A stretch of 64,000 nt of DNA, from positions 1 to 64,000 of the IMG/VR virus record IMGVR_UViG_3300045747_000058; one strand, written 5' to 3'. The notes under the pieces were generated by a model. That model worked only from the letters and a program-made list of their open reading frames with translations. It had not been told where the DNA came from and searched no databases. Position numbers and translations under genes: made by a program. Below, in pieces: positions 14,366-61,645 of this stretch. The stretch comes from a virus. Numbering within the stretch: the first letter of the stretch is position 1; the number at the start of each line of letters is the position of its first letter.

Positions 14366-14664
14366 CACTCACGTCCACTTCTGCCAAGTTGTCAATTGAC
14401 ACCACGGCCCTGGAGCAGCTGGTCTATGAGGCCATTCTGTCTACCAAGGAACGTGGTGCGATTAGCGACGAGCTACGCCATATGTTTCCGAACCTTGCCT
14501 ACTCGTCGGTGACAGCGCGGTACGCCGCGCTCGAAGCGCAGGGCCGCATCTACCGCCCCGGTGTGACGCGCCAGGGCGACAGTGGCCGAGCGCAGATGGT
14601 GATGTGGGCGGGTAAATATGCCGGTCGTGCTAGTGACCGCCTCCGAAAGGTGCTCGGTCTGTGA
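14362..14664 (+). CDS. Winged-helix DNA-binding protein candidate (100 aa)
   Basis: Contains LVYEAILSTKERGAISDELRHMF followed by SSVTARYAALEAQGRIYR, the helix-turn-helix then wing of a small winged-helix domain. It is coupled by ATGA to the dUTPase before and to the HTH gene after. Position just upstream of the excisionase-like gene and integrase suggests regulation of lysogeny or a recombination accessory role. Confidence 0.7.
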   Translation: MTLTSTSAKLSIDTTALEQLVYEAILSTKERGAISDELRHMFPNLAYSSVTARYAALEAQGRIYRPGVTRQGDSGRAQMVMWAGKYAGRASDRLRKVLGL

Positions 14665-14990
14665 AGTCTCTTGGCCTCGTCGACGCTGCTGCCCTGCTCC
14701 GTATTCACCCGAGTACGTTGCAGGCGCGCGCGAAGGCGGGCCTTATTCCCGGTTCAAAGATTGGCCGCGCATGGGTGTTCTTGGAGGACGACCTTGTCTC
14801 CTACATTCGTGGCGGACAGGAGAACGTATGTCCCTCTACAAACAAACACCAGACGGCCCGTGGTGGGTCAGCATCACTCACCCCAATGCACCACGGGTAC
14901 GTCGCTCAACTGGAACAGTTGATAAAAAAGAAGCGCAACGAATCCACGATGAGATCAAGGCAGAGTTATGGAAAATCACACCCAAGCTAA
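14661..14990 (+). CDS. Excisionase-like / MerR-type HTH protein
   Basis: 109 aa. The first ~55 residues (LVDAAALLRIHPSTLQARAKAG ... GRAWVFLEDDLVSYI) are a typical HTH_17/excisionase winged helix. Residues after ~56 are read from DNA shared with the start of the integrase gene (14828) in another frame, so the tail may be functionally neutral. An Xis-like role in directing excision is the likely function given the integrase next door; a repressor role is the alternative. Confidence 0.75.
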   Translation: MKSLGLVDAAALLRIHPSTLQARAKAGLIPGSKIGRAWVFLEDDLVSYIRGGQENVCPSTNKHQTARGGSASLTPMHHGYVAQLEQLIKKKRNESTMRSRQSYGKSHPS

Positions 14991-15820
14991 GTGGCAAAAC
15001 CTGGGGTATGGCGGTCATGAAGTGGGTCTCAAAAGAGACCCGCAGCGACAGCGAGTTATTGAGTCTAGCCAAGCTCGGACGTATTTATACGGATCGCGCG
15101 CTGACTTCCATGACGCGGGAGAGCATCCACAGTGCCCTAGCGTTCTGCAAGACTGCAGGCACGTACACACGCTACCGCACCATGATCATGGCGATTTTGA
15201 ATGTCGCCAAAGACGAAGGCTGGCTGCGCGAAGTGCCGAAGCTCGCCACCAAGACCGACAAGAAGACCAAGCCGCGTGAGTGGATCACGCAAGAACAATG
15301 GACCAAACTTTATGCAGAACTCCCAGGACACCTCAAGCCCATGGCAGCTTTTGCAATCAGCACAGGACTTCGACAGTCTAATGTCCTTGGACTTCGATGG
15401 GACCGTGTTGACCTCGAACGAAGACTGGTATGGGTTGAAGCGGAAGATACCAAAGCCGATAAAGCTCTCGCCGTACCACTTAATGATGATGCGCTCGAAG
15501 TCCTCACGGCGCGACGTGTCAGGGGTGAGCACGATGAGTGGGTCTTTACGTTCCGAGGCAAGCCGATCAAGGATGTCAAGACGGCATTCATTGCTGCATG
15601 CATACGAGCCGGTGTTGGTCAGTCAACAAAGACTGGATATGTTGGTTTCACGTGGCATGGCTTTAGACACACATGGGCTACGTGGCACATTCAGCATGGA
15701 ACTCCTCTGGAGGTTCTTATGCGGCTTGGCGGCTGGAGTGATATGCGTATGGTTCTTAACTACGCTCAGCACTCACCGGGGCATCTAGCCTCATATGCGA
15801 ATAACGTGAGGAAGAAATGA
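14828..15820 (+). CDS. int: Tyrosine recombinase / phage integrase
   Basis: 330 aa. I use ATG 14828 (GGACAGGAGAACGT upstream) because the longer open frame would run through two other genes. The N-terminus (SLYKQTPDGPWWVSI) resembles small arm-binding domains; the core has Arg182 (GLRQSN), HGFRH (His277, Arg280) and nucleophile Tyr312 (NYAQ). The usual second His is Trp303 (GGW), a common substitution. Catalyses site-specific integration and excision. A tRNA-Val-like attP core lies ~620 bp downstream. Confidence 0.95.
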   Translation: MSLYKQTPDGPWWVSITHPNAPRVRRSTGTVDKKEAQRIHDEIKAELWKITPKLSGKTWGMAVMKWVSKETRSDSELLSLAKLGRIYTDRALTSMTRESIHSALAFCKTAGTYTRYRTMIMAILNVAKDEGWLREVPKLATKTDKKTKPREWITQEQWTKLYAELPGHLKPMAAFAISTGLRQSNVLGLRWDRVDLERRLVWVEAEDTKADKALAVPLNDDALEVLTARRVRGEHDEWVFTFRGKPIKDVKTAFIAACIRAGVGQSTKTGYVGFTWHGFRHTWATWHIQHGTPLEVLMRLGGWSDMRMVLNYAQHSPGHLASYANNVRKK

Positions 15821-16442: not shown

Positions 16443-16491
16443 TGGTAGGCGCAATTGGACTCGAACCAACGACCCCCACCATGTCAAGGTG
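16443..16491 (-). other. attP core candidate: 3' half of a tRNA-Val(GAC) gene
   Basis: Read on the minus strand, these 49 bases give an anticodon arm with loop TTGACAT (anticodon GAC), the variable region, the T-arm GTTGG-TTCGAGT-CCAAT, an acceptor 3' strand, discriminator A and CCA. From memory it closely matches E. coli tRNA-Val(GAC). The 5' half does not follow: no sequence pairing with the acceptor strand occurs where it should. A half tRNA close to a tyrosine integrase is the classic attP identity segment that rebuilds the host tRNA on integration. Confidence 0.8.
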
Positions 16492-16568
16492 CGCTGCCCC
16501 AGGTGCAAGGCCCTAGGCATGCGGGTTCTGGGGCGTTATGACATTTCACTATGACCAGAACGGCTAAG

Positions 16569-18137: not shown

Positions 18138-18532
18138 GATGTTGGTCCCTTCAAAAACTGTTGCCACGCTGAGCCAGCAAGGAATGTGAGTACGCCAAGC
18201 CCTAGCCACTTTGCGGCTGCGACTCTCATCTCTTGCCAAAACTTAACCCTAGCCTCGGCTTGCTCGATCACAAGCTCATGATGTCTACGGTGCCCGTCTG
18301 GGTCGCCTTCGGGGAAGGCTTGGCCCATCAGCTTGCTAATCGCTTCTGCAAGCTCGGATGTCTCCAGTTTCATGTGCTCCGACAACTTCTCATCTAACTT
18401 GATCTGATTTCGATCTATCCGCTTCACGAGCGCAAGCAATTGCATCGGACTGCCCTTACGACGGTCGGCGTAGTCAGGTGCAAGCTCTATAAAGCTGCTG
18501 CTTTGGTGCTCGCCTAGGTCGGTGTCATTCAT
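18134..18532 (-). CDS. Tail-anchored coiled-coil protein of the lysis cassette
   Basis: 132 aa. Helical from ~30 to 60 (LVKRIDRNQIKLDEKLSEHMK), then FPEGDPDGHRRHHE, then one membrane helix close to the C-terminus (WLGLGVLTFLAGSAWQQFL). Phage proteins of this pattern are frequent neighbours of endolysins. Possible roles are antiholin or a second membrane-active factor. No spanin hallmark such as a lipobox or periplasmic coil. Confidence 0.7.
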   Translation of the reverse strand: MNDTDLGEHQSSSFIELAPDYADRRKGSPMQLLALVKRIDRNQIKLDEKLSEHMKLETSELAEAISKLMGQAFPEGDPDGHRRHHELVIEQAEARVKFWQEMRVAAAKWLGLGVLTFLAGSAWQQFLKGPTS

Positions 18533-18720
18533 GGTTTTAGTTCTAAGTTAGAGGTTAGATTCCGTGGGGCAATTATGCCATCACGCCTATGACTTTTATT
18601 AAGTCGTTTCCTTTTGGAACCGGCTGCGTACAGCCCCAAATTATTCCTGTTTCTCAACAGACCTCGCCGCGCTTTTTCACGACCACTTTGCTCGACCACG
18701 TTATTCACGCTCAATTCCAC
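18529..18720 (-). CDS. Doubtful small ORF (63 aa)
   Basis: A GTG-initiated frame without a Shine-Dalgarno, basic (KARRGLLRNRN, SKRKRLNKSHRR), ending with an ATGA-type overlap onto the next gene. It runs through a regulatory word (18541-18563). It lies just downstream of control element A, so it may be untranslated leader. Confidence 0.25.
   Translation of the reverse strand: MELSVNNVVEQSGREKARRGLLRNRNNLGLYAAGSKRKRLNKSHRRDGIIAPRNLTSNLELKP
18541..18563 (-). promoter_or_regulatory. TCTAA word upstream of the lysis cassette
   Basis: On the minus strand: AATCTAACCTCTAACTTAGAA, i.e. TCTAA repeated at a 7-base interval and followed by TAGAA. It lies 9 bases before the start of the gene at 18532. 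Nearly the same string occurs on the minus strand at 38122-38143. Confidence 0.5.
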
Positions 18721-18732
18721 AAGTCATAAGCA

Positions 18733-18861
18733 CAGATCAAAAGACCATATCCTCTCTGTAACCTATCTATTCTTATACTCTTATACTTATAAACTTAAAT
18801 TATTAGAATTGAATTTTAAATTAAGTAAGTAAGTAATAGAGTATTTTCCTATATAGAGGTA
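18733..18861 (-). promoter_or_regulatory. AT-rich control element, copy A
   Basis: Read on the minus strand: TACCTCTATA, ~54 bases of AT-rich DNA, a 26-base block at 18797-18772 that is identical to 59135-59160 and contains three TATAAG units, then TTACAGAG and finally GGTCTTTTGATCTG. The same order and spacing (64 versus 65 bases between the first and third blocks) occur in copy B at 59070-59199. It separates the giant virion gene from the lysis cassette and faces the latter, so a promoter is the first hypothesis; the iterons also allow an origin. This accounts for most of the ~350-base gap. Confidence 0.7.
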
Positions 18862-18881: not shown

Positions 18882-21800
18882 TTAGTCAGCTTGCGCTTCT
18901 CGCACTCGATCTCCAGAATTTACCCAGTTCGCATAGAGCGCGTTTGCTGGCATCGCGTGCAGCGCCACGCTGCCGAACTGTTTACGCCCACCCGCGAGCT
19001 GCGCTACTTCAGCCAACTGCTCAATCGTCGGGCCAAGCAGTCGGCCGATGCCAGTGCCACCTTCCTTCATGTCATTCATTGCATCCACACTGAACTGACC
19101 TACTCCTAGCAAGCCCGCGCGTTGCGTTTCATACCCAATGTGATCAGCCAAGCTCCAACCATTCTTCCAATCAGGTTCCAAGGAACCGGAGGTCACGAGG
19201 CTCTTAGCCGCGTCTGCCGCGAACATCACAGGGATGTACGAGGCCACCGCCAGCATGGGCGTGTAGTTGCCGTGCGCGGCCTCATGGGTGATGCGTTTGA
19301 GTATGGTCTCTTGGAACGCGAAGGCAAACTGTTTGAGGTGGCCAATGAGCGCGTAGTGCGGGTCGTTCATCCACACTGGTTTGTCCGCAGCGTCTGGTCG
19401 CAGCACAGCGCCGTCCACCCAGCGGTTCAGAGCCATCTTGGTCTTAAGGTTCTTCGGGTCCATCAGCAGTTCACCCTGTGAGTCCTTCAGCACGTCTTTG
19501 GCCGTGAGACCTAACTCACGCAAGTATCGCTCGGAGTGGGCAGTGGGGTGATCTACGTGTCGCACGATGAAGCGTTTGGCCGCTTCCATTGCGCTCACAC
19601 GCATTGACTGGTTTACCTGTTCGGCAAAGTTGTATTTGAAAAATGCGTTGTTGATCTTTTCAGCGGTGCCTCCGCTCAGTCCTCCACCGAACGTAGCACC
19701 CATTGTGTGGGACAGGTTGGCGTTGTCGATGATGCCCATGGTGGTGGCCATCTCGGTCTGGTGGTCAAACGTCGGGTGGTCCTTCCATGCGCTAAACAAT
19801 TCTTTAGCGCCACGCTTGTATGCCCCCCATGCGTCGCCGAGCTTGCCGCCGCGCACCATAATGCCCAGCGGGTCGACCATGCTGCTGAACAGCATCATGG
19901 GTAGCAGCCGCACATTCTGGTACACCATCATGTTGCTCATCAGGCGGCGAGCGTCTGGGCTGATGTCCGCCCCCAGGTGGCCGTTGATGCCGTCCACGTA
20001 GTCCTGCGCCAGAGCTATATGCTCCTTGGTCGCGCCCTGCCCTTTGGCTTTGTCCAGCAGTTTATACAGCCCACTGCTGTCGTCGTTAAAGCGTCGCGCC
20101 CACTCAGCCCGCTTGGTGGCCTGCGCCACGTAGTTGGACATGACACCGTGGAAGTCCTTCTTCATGAACGGAGCCAACTCACTGTCAGGGATGAACGACA
20201 GCTTGCGCTCCTTACGTGCCTGCATCCCTGGGATGTCTGTCAGCACGCCATCCATGGAGCCGTCACCGGCGATGATGCGGTGCATGGTGTCCTCACCCAC
20301 ACCGTACTTACTCAGCACTGCGTTGAACTCGTCCTGATGTGAGGAGATGTAGTACGCATCGTAGACGCGAGGGAAGTAGTCCGCCCCCAGGTCATTGAGC
20401 TTTACACCAGCCCGTGTGACGTAGTCCCGCATGTCCTTTAGAAAGCCCTTCACTGCAGTCTGTGCAGCGCGCCCCTCGGCGGTGGTGGCAGTCCGCCCTT
20501 CTTGTAGCGCCTCGAAGGCATCCTGCATGTGTGCCTCGTTGGCGGTGCCCAGTGCTTTGCTCAGCGCATCCATGCGGGTTGATGCTTCGGCGCGAGCCGT
20601 GGGCAGGTAGCCCGCGTCGCTGCTCTCCTCCGTGTGCTGAGCTTTGACCAGTTTGGCCAGCTTGATCAGCGCAGGGTTGCCAGTGTCATGCAGCCGCTCA
20701 CTGCCTGTGGAGACCAGCGCGTCACGCAGGTTCACCAGCGGCTTGCCGATGCTCTTGATTGTCTCCAGCGTGTCGTTCTTGCCCACGTCCATCAGGTCAC
20801 GGCCCAGGATGTGGTCGCTCTTGCCCACATACTTGCCGTCGTTGAAGTACTTCAGGATGTGCTCGGCACGCTGGTCGTTGGTCCATATGCCCATGATGTT
20901 GCGGAAGAACTGCTTGATGCGGTTGAACACACCGACCTGTGGGCCTTGCAGTTTGAAGTTCTTGTCGTGCGCCCAGAACTGGTACGCATAAGCTGCGGCC
21001 TCCTCGGGGTCACGCAGTTGGCGCAGTGCCTCGGGGCTGTGAGCCAGCCGCTCACGAAGCTGGGCCTGGATGTGCGGGGACATTGCCATGCGCTCAATCA
21101 CGTTGCTAATCTCAGGGTGTCCCTTGTCACGAAGCTGCTGGAAGAATCCGTGCAGCGCCTCATGGTGCGCCACGCTCATCGGGTTCAGACTGTGGACCGA
21201 CACGCGGATGATGTCGCCCATCTGCTCCCGGGAGAACTCACCGGCGTGGAGGATGTTGGCCATCTCTAAGCTGACGGTGTTGCCCAGCACCTTGTGCAGG
21301 TAGTCGAGGATGTCCTTGTGTGAAGAGGTCTTGGGGCCGGTGGCGTTGGGGGCCATACGTTGGGCGCTGAGACGGTCAATGCGGTGTTGACTCCAGGTAT
21401 TTTCTTTGCCTGGGTTAGCGCCGGTGTCACGGTGCGAGCCGATGTCACCGGAGGGATCATGGAAGTCCTTGACGTGTTCGTTGAACGAGCGCAACAGCAT
21501 TCGCATCTCGGTCGTCGAGTAGTTACCTTCGCGGAATTTGGAGTATGTGCCGTCGGGGGACTGACCGTCGCCCTTGGTCTCACGTTCCTCTTTGGGGTTC
21601 AGTTCACGCAGGAGGTGCGCGTACTTGTCGTGAGCGAGGGTTCCATCCTTTGGGCCGTCGATGGAGACCCCATGTCCTGGGGCGTCGTCCCATCTGAACT
21701 TGTTGATCGTCAGCACGGTGGCCGCGTCGGGGTCGGGCACCTCGGCTTTCTCCATCACGTCGTGGTCCAGCACACGCATGATGTAACCACTTTCGCCGTC

Positions 21801-24800
21801 GCGGGTCGTCCACAGCGTCGCACGCTTGATGGGGCCGAACGCACCGATGTGTGCGAGCTTATCTATGTTGTCTGAGGTCTCACGGTTAATACCCCAGTAT
21901 TTTTTGCCGGTGCTTTCCAAGCTGTACTTCTTCGTCAGCAGGCCGTATGCCACGGTGGGGTCGGCCTTGATCAGCTCAGCGATACGTGCGTTGGCAGCGT
22001 CCAAGACCTTCACGACCTCGGGCGTAGCCTCTTGCCCGTTCAGCGCCTCCACCGCACGCTGCAAGCCCTTTGCATCCGTGCTCTCCGACATTTCCTTGAT
22101 CAGTGCCTTGTCACCAGAGGCTGCTTTCTCCAGAAACGCCGCCTTCTTGGCGGCTACTGCTTTTGGGTCGGGGGTGCCCTCCACCTTCGCAGCCTTCTCC
22201 GTCGGTGGGTGCGCCTCTCGGAAGTCCTTCGTACGGATTGCTTCCTTGGACCCCATCACCAGTGCGTCGAGCGCAGCCTTGGCGTCCGTCGGAGAGGCGA
22301 TCTTGCCGTCATGCCCCTTGGCGAAGTTCATCAGCTTGTCGCGCATGGCGGGGGCCAGCACATCAGCGTACGTCGCCAGCTTGGTCGCACGCTCTGCGAG
22401 GCTGCGCATCATCGCCAGCTTGGGTGCCGCCACACCGAGCTTCTGCTCAGCCGTAGCACCCTTCTTCGGGAAAGCATTCCCCAGGTTGCGCCACTCGTCG
22501 AGGAACGTGCCCAGACGCTTGTTGAACGTCTCTTGGTACGCGGTATGGCCCACATCCGTGAGCATTCCGTTCTGCGTGGCGAGCCGGTCCTTTTCGGTGT
22601 GGAAGCCTGCGATGTCTTTCTTGATCTTCTCGATGGCCTTGGCATTCGGGCCGACAAACTTCTCGCTGTCCTTCAGCGACGCGCCCTCGTTCTCCTTGAC
22701 GAACTGTTCACGGGCAGCGGCATCTTCCTTCTCCAACCCACGCATGCGTGCGGACAGGTTGGTGATGTTGCCCTTGAGTTCGTTGATCGCGCTATTGTGC
22801 TCATGGACGTTCGGGTTCTTCACCTTGCTGAAGTCGTCGCGAAACGAGCCGTCACCGGCGTTGGTGCGGATTCTTAGATCGTCTTCAGAGAGTAGAGATG
22901 AGGTCGTACCAATGTCACCGAACGGGTCCACCTCACGCTTACCAGAGCCAGTGCCGCCGTACGGGTCACCACTTCGGTAGATGCGCTCCTGGGTCAGTTC
23001 GGTCAGTTGGTCGTGAGCACGTTCCAATTCATGGGCCACATTTTTGCCGTCCGCAGCTTGGCGCTCCAAATCTTCGATGTGGCTGCGCTGCTTGGCAACA
23101 GCGGCGTTGATCTCCGCTGCCTTGGGCGCATCACGCATGTTCTGCTCCATGTGCGCCACACGATCCTTCAGGTCCCTCAGGCTGTCCATAGGCTTGCCGT
23201 TGCCGCCAATAGGTAGCTGCCCCTTGTCGTCGGGGAACATGCGGTGCCCATTGTTCAGTTCGTCGATCTGGTTACGGATGTAGCTGGCCTTGTCTTTGCT
23301 CGTCTCGCCCTCCAGTGTGCGCTCCAGACGAGCAATGCGGCTCTCGCGGTCAGCGATCTCGGACTTCACTCCTTCGATGCGCAGGCGGTGATGACCGGCG
23401 ATAGCGTCACGGTCGTGGGCACCGGTGGCGTTGTCGGAGCGAATCTGCGTACGAAGCTCTTCGATCTGTGCGCTGATCTGCTTACGCGTCTCAGGCTTGG
23501 ACGTACCTTCTAGCTTCGTCTCCAGCGTTTCGAGTTTGGACTGCAACTTACGCTGCGCAGCTTCGTGGACCACACCGCGTGCTGGCTTGGCGCTGGCACC
23601 TTCGTCTTTTGCACCTATCTGCCCAGTCCGTTGTGGCGAGCCGTACTCGGTGCCCAGGATTTCTTCCTGGCGTCCACGGTCTTTTTCCATCGCACGCTTC
23701 AGTGCGTTCGTCCATGCCTCGCGCTCGGGGATGCGGAAGTCTGGGTCGCTGAGGTGCTCTTGCTTCCACTTTGCCAGCGCTAGGTTGTAATCCTTACCCT
23801 TGAGGAATTTCCCTTCCAGCGCCTCGATGCCAGCCTTGTGCAGCTTGTCACGCGCAACATCCTCACCTACCCACGCCTTCTTGTGAGCGCTCACCAGTTG
23901 ATCACGTGTGAGTTCGTCCACGTGGGCCAACTGCTTCTGCATCTCAGGTGAGAGATTCTTCGGCTCAGGGAAACGCGAACCCAGATCACCACGCAGATCA
24001 CCCACGGTGATCTTGCGGCCCTTGCGGTACGCCACCACGGTGTCAGGGTCGATGTTGCCCAGCATGCGGTCTGTACCGCCCTTGGGTGCCTTCACCACTT
24101 GGTCGTGGCTCAGCGTTTCACCGTTCTCATTGTTGAATCCGTTGCCTTTGCTCTCGTGCTGCAACACCGCTGCGTAGCCGTTGGTGAATGCCTCCTTGAT
24201 ACGCTGCATGTCAGTGGCGTCGTTGCCACTGGTATGGTCGTAGCCCATCTTCTTGGAGAACTCGCTGGTCAGGCGCACTGCGTCGTATGCCCTGTCACCC
24301 ACGTTGAACCGTGCTGGCGAGCGGCCATGGTTCTTGGCGTCCAGCTGCACGCGGCGCAACTCGTATGGTGCGATGCCCTCAGCGTCGCGGTCCTTGCCTT
24401 GGAGCTTGATGTAGCCCACGTTACCCGCGTGCTTTTCGTCCATCCCCACCATGTGCGGGAACTGCTCCTGCACCGTGCCCCACGACTTGCCGGAGGACTT
24501 CATGTAGTCCTTTGCAGTCACGAAGCTCACGTTGTAGCCGGGGTACTGGTTGCGCAGTTCACGGATGCGGCTCTCTGTGGAGCTTTGCGCGTCGGCCATG
24601 CCGGTGGACTGTTCGTGCGCAGGAGAGCGGAACAGGCCATTGAGCTTGCCAGTGCCACGCTTCACAGTGCCTACCTTGTCGCCCTTGCCGATGTACAACT
24701 CGCCTTGTCCGGTCTCCTTGTTCACGCCGCGCACATACCCGTGGGTGTCCCACTCATGCTCGGGCACCTCAGCCAGATCGGGAAAGTTCTTGTCGATGTC

Positions 24801-27398
24801 CGCGATCACGTCGCGGTCCTTCATGCCGCCCTGTGCCAACCGATCAGCGTGCTCGCGCATGGAGACGAACTCCCACTTGTGGTTGGGCCGGTTCTTCTCC
24901 ATCTGGCCCATCACGTGTTGGGTGTAGCTCTTGGCAGACTTGAACTTACCCTTCTGTACGTCGGGGTGGTCCATCATGCCGCCGATGCCCTGCATGCCCT
25001 CGGAGTCGCCTGAGGCATGCACCGTGGCTACTGACTGCCGACCTGCCTTGTCGCCTTCGCCTACGAACAGGTCACGGATGCTGCCGTCCTCATTCTTGTG
25101 GTAACCCTCTTGGAAGTCGTGCTCCAGTTCTGCGTTGTCGCGTTGCAGACCTTCCTTCGCGGCCTGCGCTGCCACGGCGGACTCATCGGTCTCGCCCACG
25201 GACTTGCCGACCTTCTGGTCGGTGCCGGTGATGTTGCTCGGGCGGTCACGCTCCACCATGGCAGCGTTCTCAAGCAGTGCGTAGGCCTTGTCAGCCTTCT
25301 TGCCGAAGATCGCCTGCATCTGGCGGTGCATCTCTTTGTTGTACAGCGTGGACTCTTCGCTCTGCTGCTTGTCGTTGCCGCGCACCCAGTTCATCAGGTG
25401 CTTAGCTGTCTGTGGGTCGTTGACGACGCTGTAGTGCTCGCTGCCGCGAGGCAGCATGGCGACGAGGCCCTTCTGCACCGTGTCGTATTGATCATGCGTG
25501 TCCACCGCGCCATTGATGTGGCCGAACACATTGTTGACTTCCTCGGGGTCCTTGCCACGGATGGCGTTGTACACCCTCGTAAGCGCGGGGCCAGTGTCCG
25601 GCCCGAGGATGCTCACGAGGTTGTCGAACATCGCTTCCTTCTTGTTCTCGAAGCGGAACTTGCCGAGGTTTTCGTATCGGCCGTCTTTGCCCTTCTGGAT
25701 ATTGGCTTCTCTACCGGCGAGGCTCATCCATTTGCGGATGCCGGAGACAAGCTCGGTCTGCATGGGTCGGCTGCTGACGAGCGCACTCTTCAGACGCTCA
25801 TCAGTGATCGCGGGCAGTAGCTCCTTGGCGATGATGTCGTGCGCTGCGCTGAAGTCCTCAGACTTCTTGGCCCCACCCTTGTCACCGCCCATGGCCTCGT
25901 TCATACCCTTCGTGAACGAACTGACCTTGCCCATCAGGGTGTCGAGGAACCCCTTGTCCTCAGCGGCCTTGGCTATCGTGGCACGATTCTCTGGGACGTT
26001 CAGGTCTCGGCTGGCGGCCTGCACCTCGTCGGTGGCGTGACCACTACCCTCCATTTCCCGAAACAGGTCGTTGGCGCGGCGGTTCGCCTCAGCCTCAGAC
26101 GCGTCGGCCATGCTCTTGGCCTGTTCGGGGTTGGCCTTGCGCATGGCCTCGGGGTCACCAAAAAAGCCGTTGTTCTTCAGGTCGTCGAGTTTCTTGTCCG
26201 CCTTGCCTTTGGCTACGCCGAGGTAGTCCAGCGCGGTCTGGGCTGCGCCCTTTTCTGCCAAGTCCTTTTTGATCGGTTCGAACGTCTCGCGGATGCTCTT
26301 GGCTGCTGCCACATATGCGTCATACGCTTTGTCGCCCACACCCTTGGCACCGGCTGCTACCTGCTCCTTTACGTCGGGAGGCACGTTGGTGTCGGATAAG
26401 AGGTCCGAGATGTCCTGCTTGGTGGCCTTGTAGGTCTCGGCCGCGCCCTTGCCGAGCTTGCTCTCGGACACTCCGTCGTATAGACCCTGGGCGATCTCCC
26501 CCAGGTTGTCCCAGACGCCTGTAGCGGCCTTTCCGGGCCTGGACTGGGCAACGTCCTCCTTAGCCACAGAAAACGCGTCTCCGACCCCTTTTAGGGCTTT
26601 ACGAGGCATTCCGTGCACCATGTCTCCAGCCATACCCGCCATACCGAAGGCACCACCCAGCACCGCGTTGTCCACGCCAGCTTCCTTGATGGCGTTCGGG
26701 TCGGTCACCTGACCGCTGGTAGCCAGTTGGCGGATGCCCTCACCACCTGCACCGGCCACACCCTGGCCCAGGACGCCCGCACCCATGTTGTGCATGAAAC
26801 TCTGGCCGATGGTGCGGCCAGCGGCCTGCTCTGCTCCTGCCCCCAGCATGCGCCCAGCCATAGTGCCGGGGACGATGTTCAGCGCTGCGGACGAAGCCAA
26901 ACCACCCAGCGCGGCACGGCCGAAGTTCTCCTGTGGGCTGCGCAGCTGGGCTTCAGGGTCCTGCTGCTGACGAAGGGAGATGTCACCGGCTTCGAGCGGA
27001 GCGAACAGGGCCGTGGGCGCAGCGATGGCACCCCCCTTGACTTTGGTCAGCCCGCCGAGCAGGCCAGCGCCCATGCCGCCCACGAGCGCGGGCGTAAGCT
27101 GACCGGCCTTGTAGCCCAACCAGTTTGCCCCGCCACGCAGATCGTGCACGCTGGCCCACGTCGGGTTTGCTGCTGCTTGCTCTGCTTGCTGGGCCTCTAG
27201 TAGCTGCTGTTGCAGTGCCTGGGTTGCTTCGGGCGAGACACTGCCGCCAAAAGCTCGGGTAGCACCCTGGCCGAGCGCAGAGAGTTGCGCCCCCATGCCA
27301 GCACCGGCACCGCGCAGGCCCTTGGAAAACTCGGACTCGCTGTTTGGACGTTTGCTGGTAGGTTCCGCGTCGGCGTAATACTGGTCGTAGAGGCTCAT
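18882..27398 (-). CDS. Giant polyvalent virion/ejection protein (2838 aa) with HExxH motif
   Basis: The N-terminal ~250 residues alternate Gly/Ala-rich hydrophobic stretches (PALVGGMGAGLLGGL, AALGGLASSAALNIVPG), a feature of internal proteins that enter membranes during DNA ejection. A very long charged middle (~300-1900) is mostly coiled coil. Around residue 2078 it has AHHEALHGFF, an HExxH zincin motif, followed ~40 residues later by EEAAAYAYQFW, which could give the third ligand. The C-terminal ~500 residues contain another Gly-rich segment and end in GDRVREAQAD. Phage 'large polyvalent proteins' combine ejection and enzymatic modules in this way. It lies at the end of the virion operon, where podoviruses keep ejection proteins. 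No RNA polymerase motifs seen, so it is not an N4-type vRNAP. Confidence 0.85.
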   Translation of the reverse strand: MSLYDQYYADAEPTSKRPNSESEFSKGLRGAGAGMGAQLSALGQGATRAFGGSVSPEATQALQQQLLEAQQAEQAAANPTWASVHDLRGGANWLGYKAGQLTPALVGGMGAGLLGGLTKVKGGAIAAPTALFAPLEAGDISLRQQQDPEAQLRSPQENFGRAALGGLASSAALNIVPGTMAGRMLGAGAEQAAGRTIGQSFMHNMGAGVLGQGVAGAGGEGIRQLATSGQVTDPNAIKEAGVDNAVLGGAFGMAGMAGDMVHGMPRKALKGVGDAFSVAKEDVAQSRPGKAATGVWDNLGEIAQGLYDGVSESKLGKGAAETYKATKQDISDLLSDTNVPPDVKEQVAAGAKGVGDKAYDAYVAAAKSIRETFEPIKKDLAEKGAAQTALDYLGVAKGKADKKLDDLKNNGFFGDPEAMRKANPEQAKSMADASEAEANRRANDLFREMEGSGHATDEVQAASRDLNVPENRATIAKAAEDKGFLDTLMGKVSSFTKGMNEAMGGDKGGAKKSEDFSAAHDIIAKELLPAITDERLKSALVSSRPMQTELVSGIRKWMSLAGREANIQKGKDGRYENLGKFRFENKKEAMFDNLVSILGPDTGPALTRVYNAIRGKDPEEVNNVFGHINGAVDTHDQYDTVQKGLVAMLPRGSEHYSVVNDPQTAKHLMNWVRGNDKQQSEESTLYNKEMHRQMQAIFGKKADKAYALLENAAMVERDRPSNITGTDQKVGKSVGETDESAVAAQAAKEGLQRDNAELEHDFQEGYHKNEDGSIRDLFVGEGDKAGRQSVATVHASGDSEGMQGIGGMMDHPDVQKGKFKSAKSYTQHVMGQMEKNRPNHKWEFVSMREHADRLAQGGMKDRDVIADIDKNFPDLAEVPEHEWDTHGYVRGVNKETGQGELYIGKGDKVGTVKRGTGKLNGLFRSPAHEQSTGMADAQSSTESRIRELRNQYPGYNVSFVTAKDYMKSSGKSWGTVQEQFPHMVGMDEKHAGNVGYIKLQGKDRDAEGIAPYELRRVQLDAKNHGRSPARFNVGDRAYDAVRLTSEFSKKMGYDHTSGNDATDMQRIKEAFTNGYAAVLQHESKGNGFNNENGETLSHDQVVKAPKGGTDRMLGNIDPDTVVAYRKGRKITVGDLRGDLGSRFPEPKNLSPEMQKQLAHVDELTRDQLVSAHKKAWVGEDVARDKLHKAGIEALEGKFLKGKDYNLALAKWKQEHLSDPDFRIPEREAWTNALKRAMEKDRGRQEEILGTEYGSPQRTGQIGAKDEGASAKPARGVVHEAAQRKLQSKLETLETKLEGTSKPETRKQISAQIEELRTQIRSDNATGAHDRDAIAGHHRLRIEGVKSEIADRESRIARLERTLEGETSKDKASYIRNQIDELNNGHRMFPDDKGQLPIGGNGKPMDSLRDLKDRVAHMEQNMRDAPKAAEINAAVAKQRSHIEDLERQAADGKNVAHELERAHDQLTELTQERIYRSGDPYGGTGSGKREVDPFGDIGTTSSLLSEDDLRIRTNAGDGSFRDDFSKVKNPNVHEHNSAINELKGNITNLSARMRGLEKEDAAAREQFVKENEGASLKDSEKFVGPNAKAIEKIKKDIAGFHTEKDRLATQNGMLTDVGHTAYQETFNKRLGTFLDEWRNLGNAFPKKGATAEQKLGVAAPKLAMMRSLAERATKLATYADVLAPAMRDKLMNFAKGHDGKIASPTDAKAALDALVMGSKEAIRTKDFREAHPPTEKAAKVEGTPDPKAVAAKKAAFLEKAASGDKALIKEMSESTDAKGLQRAVEALNGQEATPEVVKVLDAANARIAELIKADPTVAYGLLTKKYSLESTGKKYWGINRETSDNIDKLAHIGAFGPIKRATLWTTRDGESGYIMRVLDHDVMEKAEVPDPDAATVLTINKFRWDDAPGHGVSIDGPKDGTLAHDKYAHLLRELNPKEERETKGDGQSPDGTYSKFREGNYSTTEMRMLLRSFNEHVKDFHDPSGDIGSHRDTGANPGKENTWSQHRIDRLSAQRMAPNATGPKTSSHKDILDYLHKVLGNTVSLEMANILHAGEFSREQMGDIIRVSVHSLNPMSVAHHEALHGFFQQLRDKGHPEISNVIERMAMSPHIQAQLRERLAHSPEALRQLRDPEEAAAYAYQFWAHDKNFKLQGPQVGVFNRIKQFFRNIMGIWTNDQRAEHILKYFNDGKYVGKSDHILGRDLMDVGKNDTLETIKSIGKPLVNLRDALVSTGSERLHDTGNPALIKLAKLVKAQHTEESSDAGYLPTARAEASTRMDALSKALGTANEAHMQDAFEALQEGRTATTAEGRAAQTAVKGFLKDMRDYVTRAGVKLNDLGADYFPRVYDAYYISSHQDEFNAVLSKYGVGEDTMHRIIAGDGSMDGVLTDIPGMQARKERKLSFIPDSELAPFMKKDFHGVMSNYVAQATKRAEWARRFNDDSSGLYKLLDKAKGQGATKEHIALAQDYVDGINGHLGADISPDARRLMSNMMVYQNVRLLPMMLFSSMVDPLGIMVRGGKLGDAWGAYKRGAKELFSAWKDHPTFDHQTEMATTMGIIDNANLSHTMGATFGGGLSGGTAEKINNAFFKYNFAEQVNQSMRVSAMEAAKRFIVRHVDHPTAHSERYLRELGLTAKDVLKDSQGELLMDPKNLKTKMALNRWVDGAVLRPDAADKPVWMNDPHYALIGHLKQFAFAFQETILKRITHEAAHGNYTPMLAVASYIPVMFAADAAKSLVTSGSLEPDWKNGWSLADHIGYETQRAGLLGVGQFSVDAMNDMKEGGTGIGRLLGPTIEQLAEVAQLAGGRKQFGSVALHAMPANALYANWVNSGDRVREAQAD

Positions 27399-58939: not shown

Positions 58940-58950
58940 ACTGTAGGTTG

Positions 58951-58983
58951 AAAGAGTGGGAGCTTCGGCTCCTACTCTTTTTT
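58951..58983 (+). terminator. Rho-independent terminator with UUCG tetraloop
   Basis: A 13-position stem (AAAGAGT-G-GGAGC / GCTCC-T-ACTCTTT, one G-T pair) capped by TTCG and followed by six T. Eleven bases after the stop of the gene at 57932. It closes the rightward small-gene operon. Confidence 0.9.
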
Positions 58984-59069
58984 GTGTGGCGATGAGTGAC
59001 TGCGTAAAAGTCTGTCTACCCGGTCGAGACTAAAAGACCATCCTTACGGTTTATGCTTTCGATCGTCCC

Positions 59070-59199
59070 TACCTCTATAGAGAATAATATTTACTTTCTA
59101 CTACTAATATACTTTATTTTCTTTATTGATAAGATAAGTTTATAAGTATAAGAGTATAAGGTATATAGAATTACAGAGGAGAACAGGTCTTTTGATCTG
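59070..59199 (+). promoter_or_regulatory. AT-rich control element, copy B
   Basis: Same layout as copy A but on the plus strand: TACCTCTATA, ~55 AT-rich bases, the 26-base identical block (59135-59160; three TATAAG units), TTACAGAG and GGTCTTTTGATCTG. It lies in the 327-base gap before the primase-helicase gene. Part of the gap upstream (58984-59069) contains ACTAAAAGACC, an inverted partial copy of GGTCTTTT. Promoter or origin function is inferred. Confidence 0.7.
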
Positions 59200-59206
59200 A
59201 CCTTAC

Positions 59207-59237
59207 GTCTTTTGATCTAAGCTCTGCTTTAGATCGC
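59207..59237 (+). promoter_or_regulatory. TCTAA word and second CTTTTGATCT copy
   Basis: TCTTTTGATCT repeats the end of element B after ~10 bases, and is fused to GATCTAAGCTCTGCTTTAGATCG (in parts: GATCTAAGCTCTG at 59214-59226 and TTTAGATCG), an imperfect palindrome. It lies ~30-50 bases before the primase-helicase ATG, the usual place for an operator. Confidence 0.55.
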
Positions 59238-59266
59238 ATACACTCTACCCCTTCTGAAAGGCAAAC

Positions 59267-61645
59267 ATGAACGTCGTTTTTCTTCAAGCATCTGAGCCGT
59301 TGACCAAACAATATTCGAAAGTCAACGGTGACCTGACAAAGACTCCCTACCCTATGACGTGGGAGTTCACTTCGCACAAAGAAGTGGTCAACAACCTCCC
59401 CCAGTTCGAAGCCCTTCTGATCAAACACTCTGCACGTGGTAACTGCGTGCTCAAGGGTCTGATCGTTCGCGACCTCGTGAAAGAGTCGCGTGCGGGCAGC
59501 ACCACTTCCAATGACACCACGGAGTGGTTGGTGTTAGACCTGGACGGATTACCTGAGCACATCACCATTCAGACCCCTGGTGGTCAAGCCCTCAGCACCC
59601 CAATGACCATTGACTTGTTTCTTGGCGAGATGGGTCTAGCCGACATCTCTTACATCGTGCAGTGGTCTGCCTCATACGGTGTGTCTGACAAGAAGATACG
59701 CGCGCACGTGTTCATGATGCTCGACCGCGCCTACACCGCACCACTGATTAAGCAGTGGCTGATCCAGAAGAACCATGAGGTGCCGCTCCTGCGTGACTCC
59801 ATGGGTCTGACCAAGACTGGCAACTCCTTGCTCTGGCCCTTGGATGTGAGCGCATGTCAAAACGACAAGTTAATCTACATTGCCCCACCCATCCTCAAGG
59901 GCATCAAAGACCCGATGGGCAAGACGCCACGCATCAAGCTGGAGAAACGCAAGCACGAAGTACTTGCGTTGACCTCGACCATCAACACCACAGATAAAAA
60001 CAAAAAGCTCACGCACGACCGTGTTAACGAGTTGCGCGACATCGGTGGACTGCCTAAGCGTAAGTTCACCTACAAAGTCGTCGGCAGTGCTGAGGTCATG
60101 CTCAAACCAGATGAAGCCACCATCTCTGAAATGAAAACTGAACGTGGGTTCGTGTATTTCAACTTGAATGGTGGAGACTCCTGGGCGTACTACCACCCAG
60201 AGGATCGCCCGGACTACCTGCACAACTTCAAAGGGGAACCAAGTTACCTCACCAAAGAAATTCTCCCCGAGTACTGGGCACAGATCACCTCGTCAGGAAA
60301 TCTTCGCACGTCAAGTTCGGGCATTACTTACCTGGCTTTTTGTGACCGTAAGTCTGGGGTGTATTACCGCGGTACCTACGACAATGCTGCTGACCTCTTG
60401 GACATCACCCCCGCCAAGAACGAAACACAACTGCGTCACTTTGCGCTCCAGTACGGCGTGCCGCTCGGAGATTACATCCCCGAATGGGACCTAGCCTTCG
60501 ACCCTATGGACAACGTCCGTGTGGACGTGGCTAACAAAACGATCAACAAATTCGTGCCCAGCTGCTACATGAAGACAGTGGCTAAGAAGGTCACCAAGTG
60601 CCCGCCCACTGTCTTCAAAGTCCTTCACCACGCACTAGGCTTGGACGTGGACATCACAGAGCACTTCCTGAACTGGACTGCTTACGTCCTCCAGAAGCGT
60701 GACCGTACCAAGACCGCATGGGTCATGCATGGCACCCAAGGCACTGGCAAAGGAATTCTCACCAATAACATCCTCAGACCCATCTTCGGTGCTCCGCACG
60801 TAGCTAGTCGCCGAATGGAGGAACTGGCCGACAAATACAACCAGTTCATGGAAAACAGCTTACTGGTGTTTGTCGATGAGGTGCAGATCAAGGCCTTACA
60901 GAATGAAGGCGGCATCATGGCGAAGCTGAAGAACTTCATCACTGAAGAGAATGTACCTATGCGCGCCATGTACAGCAACGCGCAAGAGGCGCGCAATTAC
61001 ACCAACTGGATTTTCATGTCCAACATGGCTGACCCAATCCTGATCGACAAGAATGATCGTCGCTTCAACGTAGGCAAATACCAGCCTGACAAACTGGTAC
61101 TGACTGACAAAGAGTTGGACACCATCGACAAAGAGCTTCAAACATTCCACGACTTCCTACTGTCCTATCCCCTGGATGAGCAGAGAGCAGGTGAAGTGAT
61201 CCATACCACGGACCGCGACACCATGATCTCTATCTCCGAGTCTTCAATTGATACGGTGGCCTCTGCCCTGCTCGAAGGAAACTTTGGATTCTTTGTAGAG
61301 CAGCTTCCGACAGACATGGCCTACCAGCGCAACGCCATGATCAATGGAAAGGTCGAAGATTACCGTGAAGTGTTGATCTCCCTGCTTGGCCGCACAAACT
61401 CAGCTGGTGCATGCAACATCGCCCGTGATGAGCTACGCGCCATGTTGGAGTATGTGGTGGGGAACATCCCTGTCTCGCCCAACAAGTTCACCTCCATGCT
61501 CAAGCACCACCGCGTGCACACAAAAGTAGTGTGGGTGAACAACAAGTCTGTCAACGGAATCACCGTGCAATGGCAGGACACGAGGAACTTTAGCAAGTAC
61601 ATCGCTGACCACTTCGCACCGAAAGGAAAGGTTAAGACCAAATGA
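59267..61645 (+). CDS. Primase / SF3 helicase (PrimPol-like N-terminus, DUF5906-type C-terminus)
   Basis: 792 aa. The N-terminal region carries WLVLDLDG (Asp91, Asp93), consistent with the catalytic acidic pair of archaeo-eukaryotic primases. The C-terminal helicase has GTQGTGKG (489-496), LLVFVDEV (Asp537, Glu538) and a sensor-type FMSN (Asn586), the three SF3/D5-like motifs, with an arginine-rich DRRF shortly after. It would unwind and prime phage DNA for the Pol I-type polymerase. AT-rich element B lies immediately upstream, consistent with an origin or strong promoter. Confidence 0.9.
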   Translation: MNVVFLQASEPLTKQYSKVNGDLTKTPYPMTWEFTSHKEVVNNLPQFEALLIKHSARGNCVLKGLIVRDLVKESRAGSTTSNDTTEWLVLDLDGLPEHITIQTPGGQALSTPMTIDLFLGEMGLADISYIVQWSASYGVSDKKIRAHVFMMLDRAYTAPLIKQWLIQKNHEVPLLRDSMGLTKTGNSLLWPLDVSACQNDKLIYIAPPILKGIKDPMGKTPRIKLEKRKHEVLALTSTINTTDKNKKLTHDRVNELRDIGGLPKRKFTYKVVGSAEVMLKPDEATISEMKTERGFVYFNLNGGDSWAYYHPEDRPDYLHNFKGEPSYLTKEILPEYWAQITSSGNLRTSSSGITYLAFCDRKSGVYYRGTYDNAADLLDITPAKNETQLRHFALQYGVPLGDYIPEWDLAFDPMDNVRVDVANKTINKFVPSCYMKTVAKKVTKCPPTVFKVLHHALGLDVDITEHFLNWTAYVLQKRDRTKTAWVMHGTQGTGKGILTNNILRPIFGAPHVASRRMEELADKYNQFMENSLLVFVDEVQIKALQNEGGIMAKLKNFITEENVPMRAMYSNAQEARNYTNWIFMSNMADPILIDKNDRRFNVGKYQPDKLVLTDKELDTIDKELQTFHDFLLSYPLDEQRAGEVIHTTDRDTMISISESSIDTVASALLEGNFGFFVEQLPTDMAYQRNAMINGKVEDYREVLISLLGRTNSAGACNIARDELRAMLEYVVGNIPVSPNKFTSMLKHHRVHTKVVWVNNKSVNGITVQWQDTRNFSKYIADHFAPKGKVKTK

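Follow-up and report, generated by a model that had tools for sequence, protein, structure and literature searches.

Two distant AT-rich iteron elements as candidate replication origins in a tailed phage and its relatives

The stretch of viral DNA analyzed here (64,000 nt, hereafter the window) belongs to a tailed phage whose early genes lie on the plus strand and encode the primase, an exonuclease, an SNF2-type helicase, DNA polymerase A, a ligase, and an integrase, and whose late genes lie on the minus strand and comprise terminase, portal, and tail genes, a giant 2838-aa virion protein, and then the lysis genes. Its nearest cultured phages are the Pseudomonas phages KPP25 and phiR18, with 41% identity in the primase and 33% in the giant protein. 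Two AT-rich elements stand out in intergenic positions (Table 1): element A is bordered by the stop codon of the giant virion gene on one side and by the lysis genes on the other, and element B lies between a terminator-like hairpin and the primase start. The terminator rule of the prediction tool did not flag this hairpin. Elsewhere on the map, a tRNA-Val(gac) gene (16443-16520, minus strand) is found close to the integrase gene (14618-15820, plus strand) and may mark an attachment site.

Table 1. Coordinates of elements A and B, their parts, and neighboring landmarks in the window
Feature	Coordinates	Strand	Basis
Primase-helicase gene, candidate initiator	59267..61645	+	PHROG and Pfam matches; PDB 6k9c by sequence and fold
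Giant virion structural protein gene, ends beside A (landmark)	18882..27398	-	phrog_30152
Terminator-like hairpin with T tail, parts the upstream operon from B	58950..58986	+	-22 kcal/mol, folded stretch
Element B, putative replication origin 5' of the primase-helicase gene	59070..59199	+	Second AT-richest 80 bp of the window (0.82)
B left boundary block TACCTCTATA	59070..59079	+	Common to A; CCTCTATATAG-like block in relatives
B AT-rich tract, putative DNA-unwinding element	59080..59134	+	AT maximum; composition kept, sequence drifts
B iteron array, three TATAAG units, 26-mer TAAGTTTATAAGTATAAGAGTATAAG	59135..59160	+	Identical 26-mer in A
B right boundary block TTACAGAGGAG	59171..59181	+	Common to A; AGAGG-like block in relatives
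Two GTCTTTTGATCT boxes around the inverted flanking iteron CCTTACG (59201-59207) of B	59186..59218	+	
B upstream inverted iterons CCTTACGG/TTTATG	59042..59055	+	Sequence; analogous upstream repeats in relatives
Element A, putative second origin, flanked by the giant virion-protein gene and the lysis genes	18733..18861	-	
A left boundary block TACCTCTATA	18852..18861	-	
A AT-rich tract	18798..18851	-	AT content
A iteron array, 26-mer TAAGTTTATAAGTATAAGAGTATAAG	18772..18797	-	Identical to that of B
A right boundary block TTACAGAG	18754..18761	-	B counterpart 59171-59178
A GGTCTTTTGATCTG box and inverted flanking iteron GCTTATGAC	18723..18746	-	Sequence

The initial annotation had reported both elements with the coordinates and strands of Table 1, and alignment bore out its description: A and B share, in the same order, TACCTCTATA, the 26-mer TAAGTTTATAAGTATAAGAGTATAAG, TTACAGAG, and GGTCTTTTGATCTG (18746-18733 in A, 59186-59199 in B), the start-to-start distance from the first block to the 26-mer is 64 versus 65 nt, and the AT-rich spacer between these blocks has indeed drifted. 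A third occurrence of GTCTTTTGATCT in the window maps to 59207-59218, and inverted iterons (CTTACG/CTTATG) lie on the flanks of both elements. A 25-mer core, that is, 25 of the 26 identical bases, found two matches at ≤3 mismatches in the window against 0.00 expected from shuffled sequences, and the full 64,565-base record contained no more than these two, whereas the 10-mer and 12-mer blocks alone were not clearly above chance in the window. Tandem TATAAG repeats are likewise confined to A and B. When 80-bp segments of the window were ranked by AT content, A came first (0.85) and B second, with the next segment at 0.66.

Scanning with the primase yielded 40 viral loci (34-88% identical) and four loci in genome assemblies, including those of Variovorax and Polaromonas. 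The position of element B above the primase is kept in these relatives, and most loci display the same layout: an CCTCTATA-like block comes first, followed by a pyrimidine/AT-rich tract with two to four iterons in tandem after it, and then by an AGAGG-like block and inverted iterons. This arrangement is retained above primases down to 48% identity. In 39 of 41 related loci, no 80-bp segment of the locus is richer in AT than this block. The iteron itself varies among phages (TATAAG, GTGTAAG, GTGTAAT, TTGGAAG, TTAGAAC, and, in KPP25, CGTAACA). Because of this divergence, a blastn search with element B matched none of the named phages, and the KPP25 pair was located by its AT content instead. Two local features of these leaders deserve mention on their own. 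At one locus (L023, genome G012, ~44870) a run of 13 C replaces the AT-rich tract 5' of the primase, possibly as an assembly fault or as an odd tract beside the iterons. Further, a TCTAA..TTAGATC-like motif, present in the window at 59222-59250 and 18530-18560, recurs before the primase and lysis start codons of several relatives as a possible shared promoter or operator.

Searches for copy A through relatives of the lysis genes yielded four loci only, but those through relatives of the giant gene succeeded: ten complete or long genomes, including that of the window (WIN, G004, G008, G009, G010, G012, G013, G017, G019, and G029), carry a second copy directly or shortly 3' of this gene, in either orientation. 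Comparison with related phages, a check that the initial annotation had proposed, finds the element layout both above the primase and after the giant gene. Most of these genomes were assembled as metagenome contigs, but the pair is also present in isolates, namely KPP25 and its kin. In most complete relatives with the pair, its members are the two AT maxima of the genome, the exceptions being G017, where other sites also rank among the maxima, and G019, where copy A is no outlier. The two AT maxima of KPP25 (0.80 and 0.79 at 26.5 and 58.4 kb; next 0.61) are copies of each other that have CTGTAGTGGAATAAAG and ATCGTAACATCGTAACA in common, with the iteron array CGTAACATCGTAACA, and these two clusters contain 13 of the 14 CGTAACA sites of the genome. 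The leader of the KPP25 primase is devoid of the element, and the early copy lies far upstream of the primase gene. CRPAP1904 likewise has two such AT maxima. Tandem iteron arrays number exactly two per genome in all eight genomes tested and, with records taken as circular, the shorter path between the copies measures 24-33 kb, or 0.37-0.50 of the genome. Among distant relatives, G016 and phiA008 each have one such element and none was found in G018. The element of the Aeromonas phage phiA008 (L117:2783-3103) is a lone AT-rich block (0.85) in the early region, with no second copy.

Both copies in a genome share the iteron type. For 9 of 11 genomes, the highest-scoring match to a copy was its own partner (permutation p = 1e-5), and in the remaining two it was a copy from a relative. 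In G017, 93 bases around the array are identical between copies despite differing flanks, which points to recent exchange. The downstream inverted iterons also track the array class, with TTCC accompanying GGAA arrays and TTAC/TTAT accompanying TAA arrays (TTCC versus TTAY, Fisher p = 6e-5, a statistic that ignores kinship). The initial annotation had reasoned that preserved blocks around a drifted spacer imply selection; this is reasonable, but the copies evolve in concert within a genome and part of their identity may stem from exchange between them. The inverted orientation that it noted applies to this genome but varies among relatives: A and B are inverted in seven genomes (WIN, G008, G009, G010, G013, G017, and G029) and direct in four (G004, G012, G019, and KPP25). 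In G004, G012, and G019, it is copy A that is flipped relative to the neighboring genes. The layout of marker genes is identical in all genomes, whatever the orientation of the copies.

These comparisons bear differently on the three functions put forward in the initial annotation, that is, paired phage-specific promoters, replication origins with TATAAG iterons, and sites for inversion of the 40-kb segment. As promoter or operator modules, B would serve the primase operon and A the lysis operon, with TATAAG as -10-like boxes or regulator sites. The location of B between the terminator-like hairpin and the primase start implies that the primase needs a promoter in this interval, and A does precede the lysis genes in the window genome. 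However, in three relatives (G004, G012, and G019) copy A does not face the lysis genes, which argues strongly against a strand-bound signal, be it a promoter or a leader RNA, at this site; moreover, neither element contains a sigma-70-like site (-35/-10 hexamers at 16-18 nt), and a promoter leaves the genome-wide AT maximum unexplained. We consider such modules very improbable on these grounds, although a promoter could overlap B or lie between B and the start codon. An RNA or cruciform element, in which boundary blocks and arms form a long hairpin akin to the stem-loop origin of plasmid pRN1, would accommodate the rough complementarity of the boundary blocks (CCTCTATA/TATAGAGG), the left-right complementarity that is slightly higher within than between genomes (p = 0.011; direct-repeat control 0.65), and the folding of some relatives beyond their shuffles (L042, z = -3.2 as DNA). 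Yet the window copies fold not clearly better than shuffled sequences, as DNA or as RNA, no Rfam match was obtained, and the orientation of A varies, all of which makes a hairpin very improbable.

Recombination or segregation sites fare worst. The inverted copies of the window genome, the likely exchange between copies evidenced by the 93-base identity in G017, and the presence of an integrase gene would fit a role in inverting the 40-kb segment, in attachment, or in centromere-like partition. Nonetheless, four genomes (G004, G012, G019, and KPP25) have the copies in direct orientation and the marker-gene layout never differs, which together exclude a general role as segment-inversion sites. 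The integrase gene is kilobases from A and about 20 kb from B, and no partition gene was recognized among the proteins scanned, which cover part of the genes. Even in its broadest form, we regard this explanation as the least probable of all. Of the three functions proposed at the outset, replication origins with TATAAG iterons are the best supported, and the evidence is comparative: recurrence, AT maxima, pairing, and a common iteron type within each genome. We thus favor the reading, probable in our judgment from sequence comparison, that A and B represent a duplicated replication origin of the iteron type, at which the phage's own primase-helicase acts. Iteron origins combine an AT-rich tract with adjoining short repeats in tandem, as seen here, and a copy A that is fixed in place and free in orientation may be compatible with such a function.

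The candidate initiator carries an SF3/D5-like helicase core (DUF5906, residues 487-599) followed by a predicted C-terminal winged helix (residues 690-782). It matches the NrS-1 helicase by sequence (E = 1e-28) and by fold; the next fold matches are poxvirus D5/E5 and the SaPI PriRep (7pds, 7ola), so that a D5-like helicase joined to a C-terminal DNA-binding domain, as in PICI/SaPI initiators, is predicted here as well. Modeling of the C-terminal 120 residues alone predicted the winged helix with a pLDDT of 91 and a pTM of 0.81, and the domain is also present in the full model. A fold search with the winged helix alone gave no match at E 0.001, its weak best ones being mostly winged-helix DNA-binding proteins. 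Some relatives encode proteins with inserts. Two primases (L028:6147-9353 and L031:10001-13240) are interrupted in frame at the Walker A region by an insert matching the Pfam intein splicing domain, and long inserts occur in the terminase (G006, L021, L028, and L029), the DNA polymerase (G005, G008, and G013), and the helicase (G013), with the frame open throughout where checked, as expected of inteins. In addition, the frame of the L015/G008 primase at 770 stops after 163 residues while homology runs on to the end, reflecting either a frameshift or a sequencing error.

The repeat class is specific to the replicon, and its link to the primase through residue 754 is suggestive. The iteron class (GGAA versus TAA) changed at least four times on a primase tree built with the C-terminus left out. 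Among primases that share one C-terminal type, residue 754, where the strand following the recognition helix begins, is K/R in all eight of the GGAA/AGAA class and V/A/P in 14 of 15 of the TAA class; in four independent contrasts, three agree with this rule, none opposes it, and one shows no difference, which is not significant after correction for kinship. When columns of the primase were scanned against the iteron class, the top ones fell mostly within residues 642-754, with other C-terminal columns likewise following the class and the columns compared having been picked after looking. A primase group with GTGTAAG/GTGTAAT arrays has the recognition helix FLGHRQI instead of LLKHHRI.

We infer that the repeats bind the initiator primase and propose how an origin of this kind would operate. 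Each copy would have two boundary blocks that enclose a meltable AT-rich tract and a tandem iteron array, with inverse iterons on the outside. Binding to the iterons most likely falls to the C-terminal winged helix of the primase-helicase, whose gene follows B directly; the protein would then assemble its ring-shaped SF3/D5-type helicase on the melted tract and prime DNA synthesis. One such site would precede the replication genes, and the other would lie past the end of the virion genes. The two copies presumably keep the same iteron type because both must be matched by one initiator and because sequence is exchanged between them. The extremes of GC skew lie off the elements: the maximum is located 2.6-10 kb away from B, close to the point where early and late genes diverge, and the minimum 6-15 kb away from A. 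As these extremes follow the divergence point, the skew is uninformative on origins. DnaA boxes (TTATNCACA) were absent from A and B at ≤1 mismatch, with one weak match just outside A (18701-18709). A bolder and rather unlikely version of the origin reading is that A and B form one split replicator, in which primase-helicase rings at both sites pair across about a third to half of the genome, and both sites are required for initiation or set its timing. If true, it would separate the arc of replication genes from that of virion genes, and the concerted evolution of the copies would be a signature of their coupling.

In a limited literature search, we found no replication origin described for KPP25-like phages. 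The pair would offer a concrete map of predicted replication start sites, together with the protein predicted to be responsible, for a diverse uncultivated clade and for cultured Pseudomonas phages. Together with their matching primase C-termini, the many iteron types found in nature amount to a data set on the co-evolution of a winged helix with its DNA site, and the paired, distant, and orientation-free layout raises the question of why there should be two origins and whether they are coupled.

Several characterized replicons offer a frame for these elements. The genome of NrS-1 contains two copies of an 8-nt recognition sequence, one per strand, that have been proposed as origins (PMC7102993). 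The helicase part is homologous to ours by sequence and fold, but the NrS-1 sites are templates for primer synthesis, both in the genome center, rather than AT-rich iteron arrays, and the NrS-1-like N-terminal part has no sequence match in the window primase. A single protein of plasmid pRN1 likewise unites a primase with an SF3 helicase and a winged helix, and a cis site is located near its gene (PMC4234260); the putative origin of the plasmid is, however, a stem-loop downstream of the gene, without iterons. Closer parallels come from PICI/SaPI elements, whose origins, like that of SCCmec Cch2, consist of short iterons around an AT-rich melting region beside the initiator gene, and whose initiators Rep/Pri-Rep are D5-like self-loading helicases, primase-fused in SaPI5, that bind the iterons through the C-terminal domain (PMC7581432, PMC6092414). 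The likeness lies in the iterons and AT-rich region near the gene of a D5-like helicase. The differences are that those origins are described as lying directly downstream of rep, whereas B is upstream of the primase gene with a second copy 24-33 kb away, and that they belong to satellites rather than to a full tailed phage. In PICI/SaPI origins, the iterons form two sets around the AT-rich region; in A and B, the array is on one side of it, with inverted degenerate iterons on both outer sides. P4 needs two separate iteron-bearing cis sites, ori and crr, which are only a few kilobases apart. Two putative cis sites of the same repeat type are likewise found in 11 genomes here, at far greater distance. 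The P4 alpha protein unites primase, helicase, and a winged helix that binds the origin repeats, as predicted for our primase-helicase, but its primase is of the Toprim (DnaG) type (PMC4234260). By analogy, A and B would work like the PICI/SaPI and P4 origins, but as two distant, co-evolving copies.
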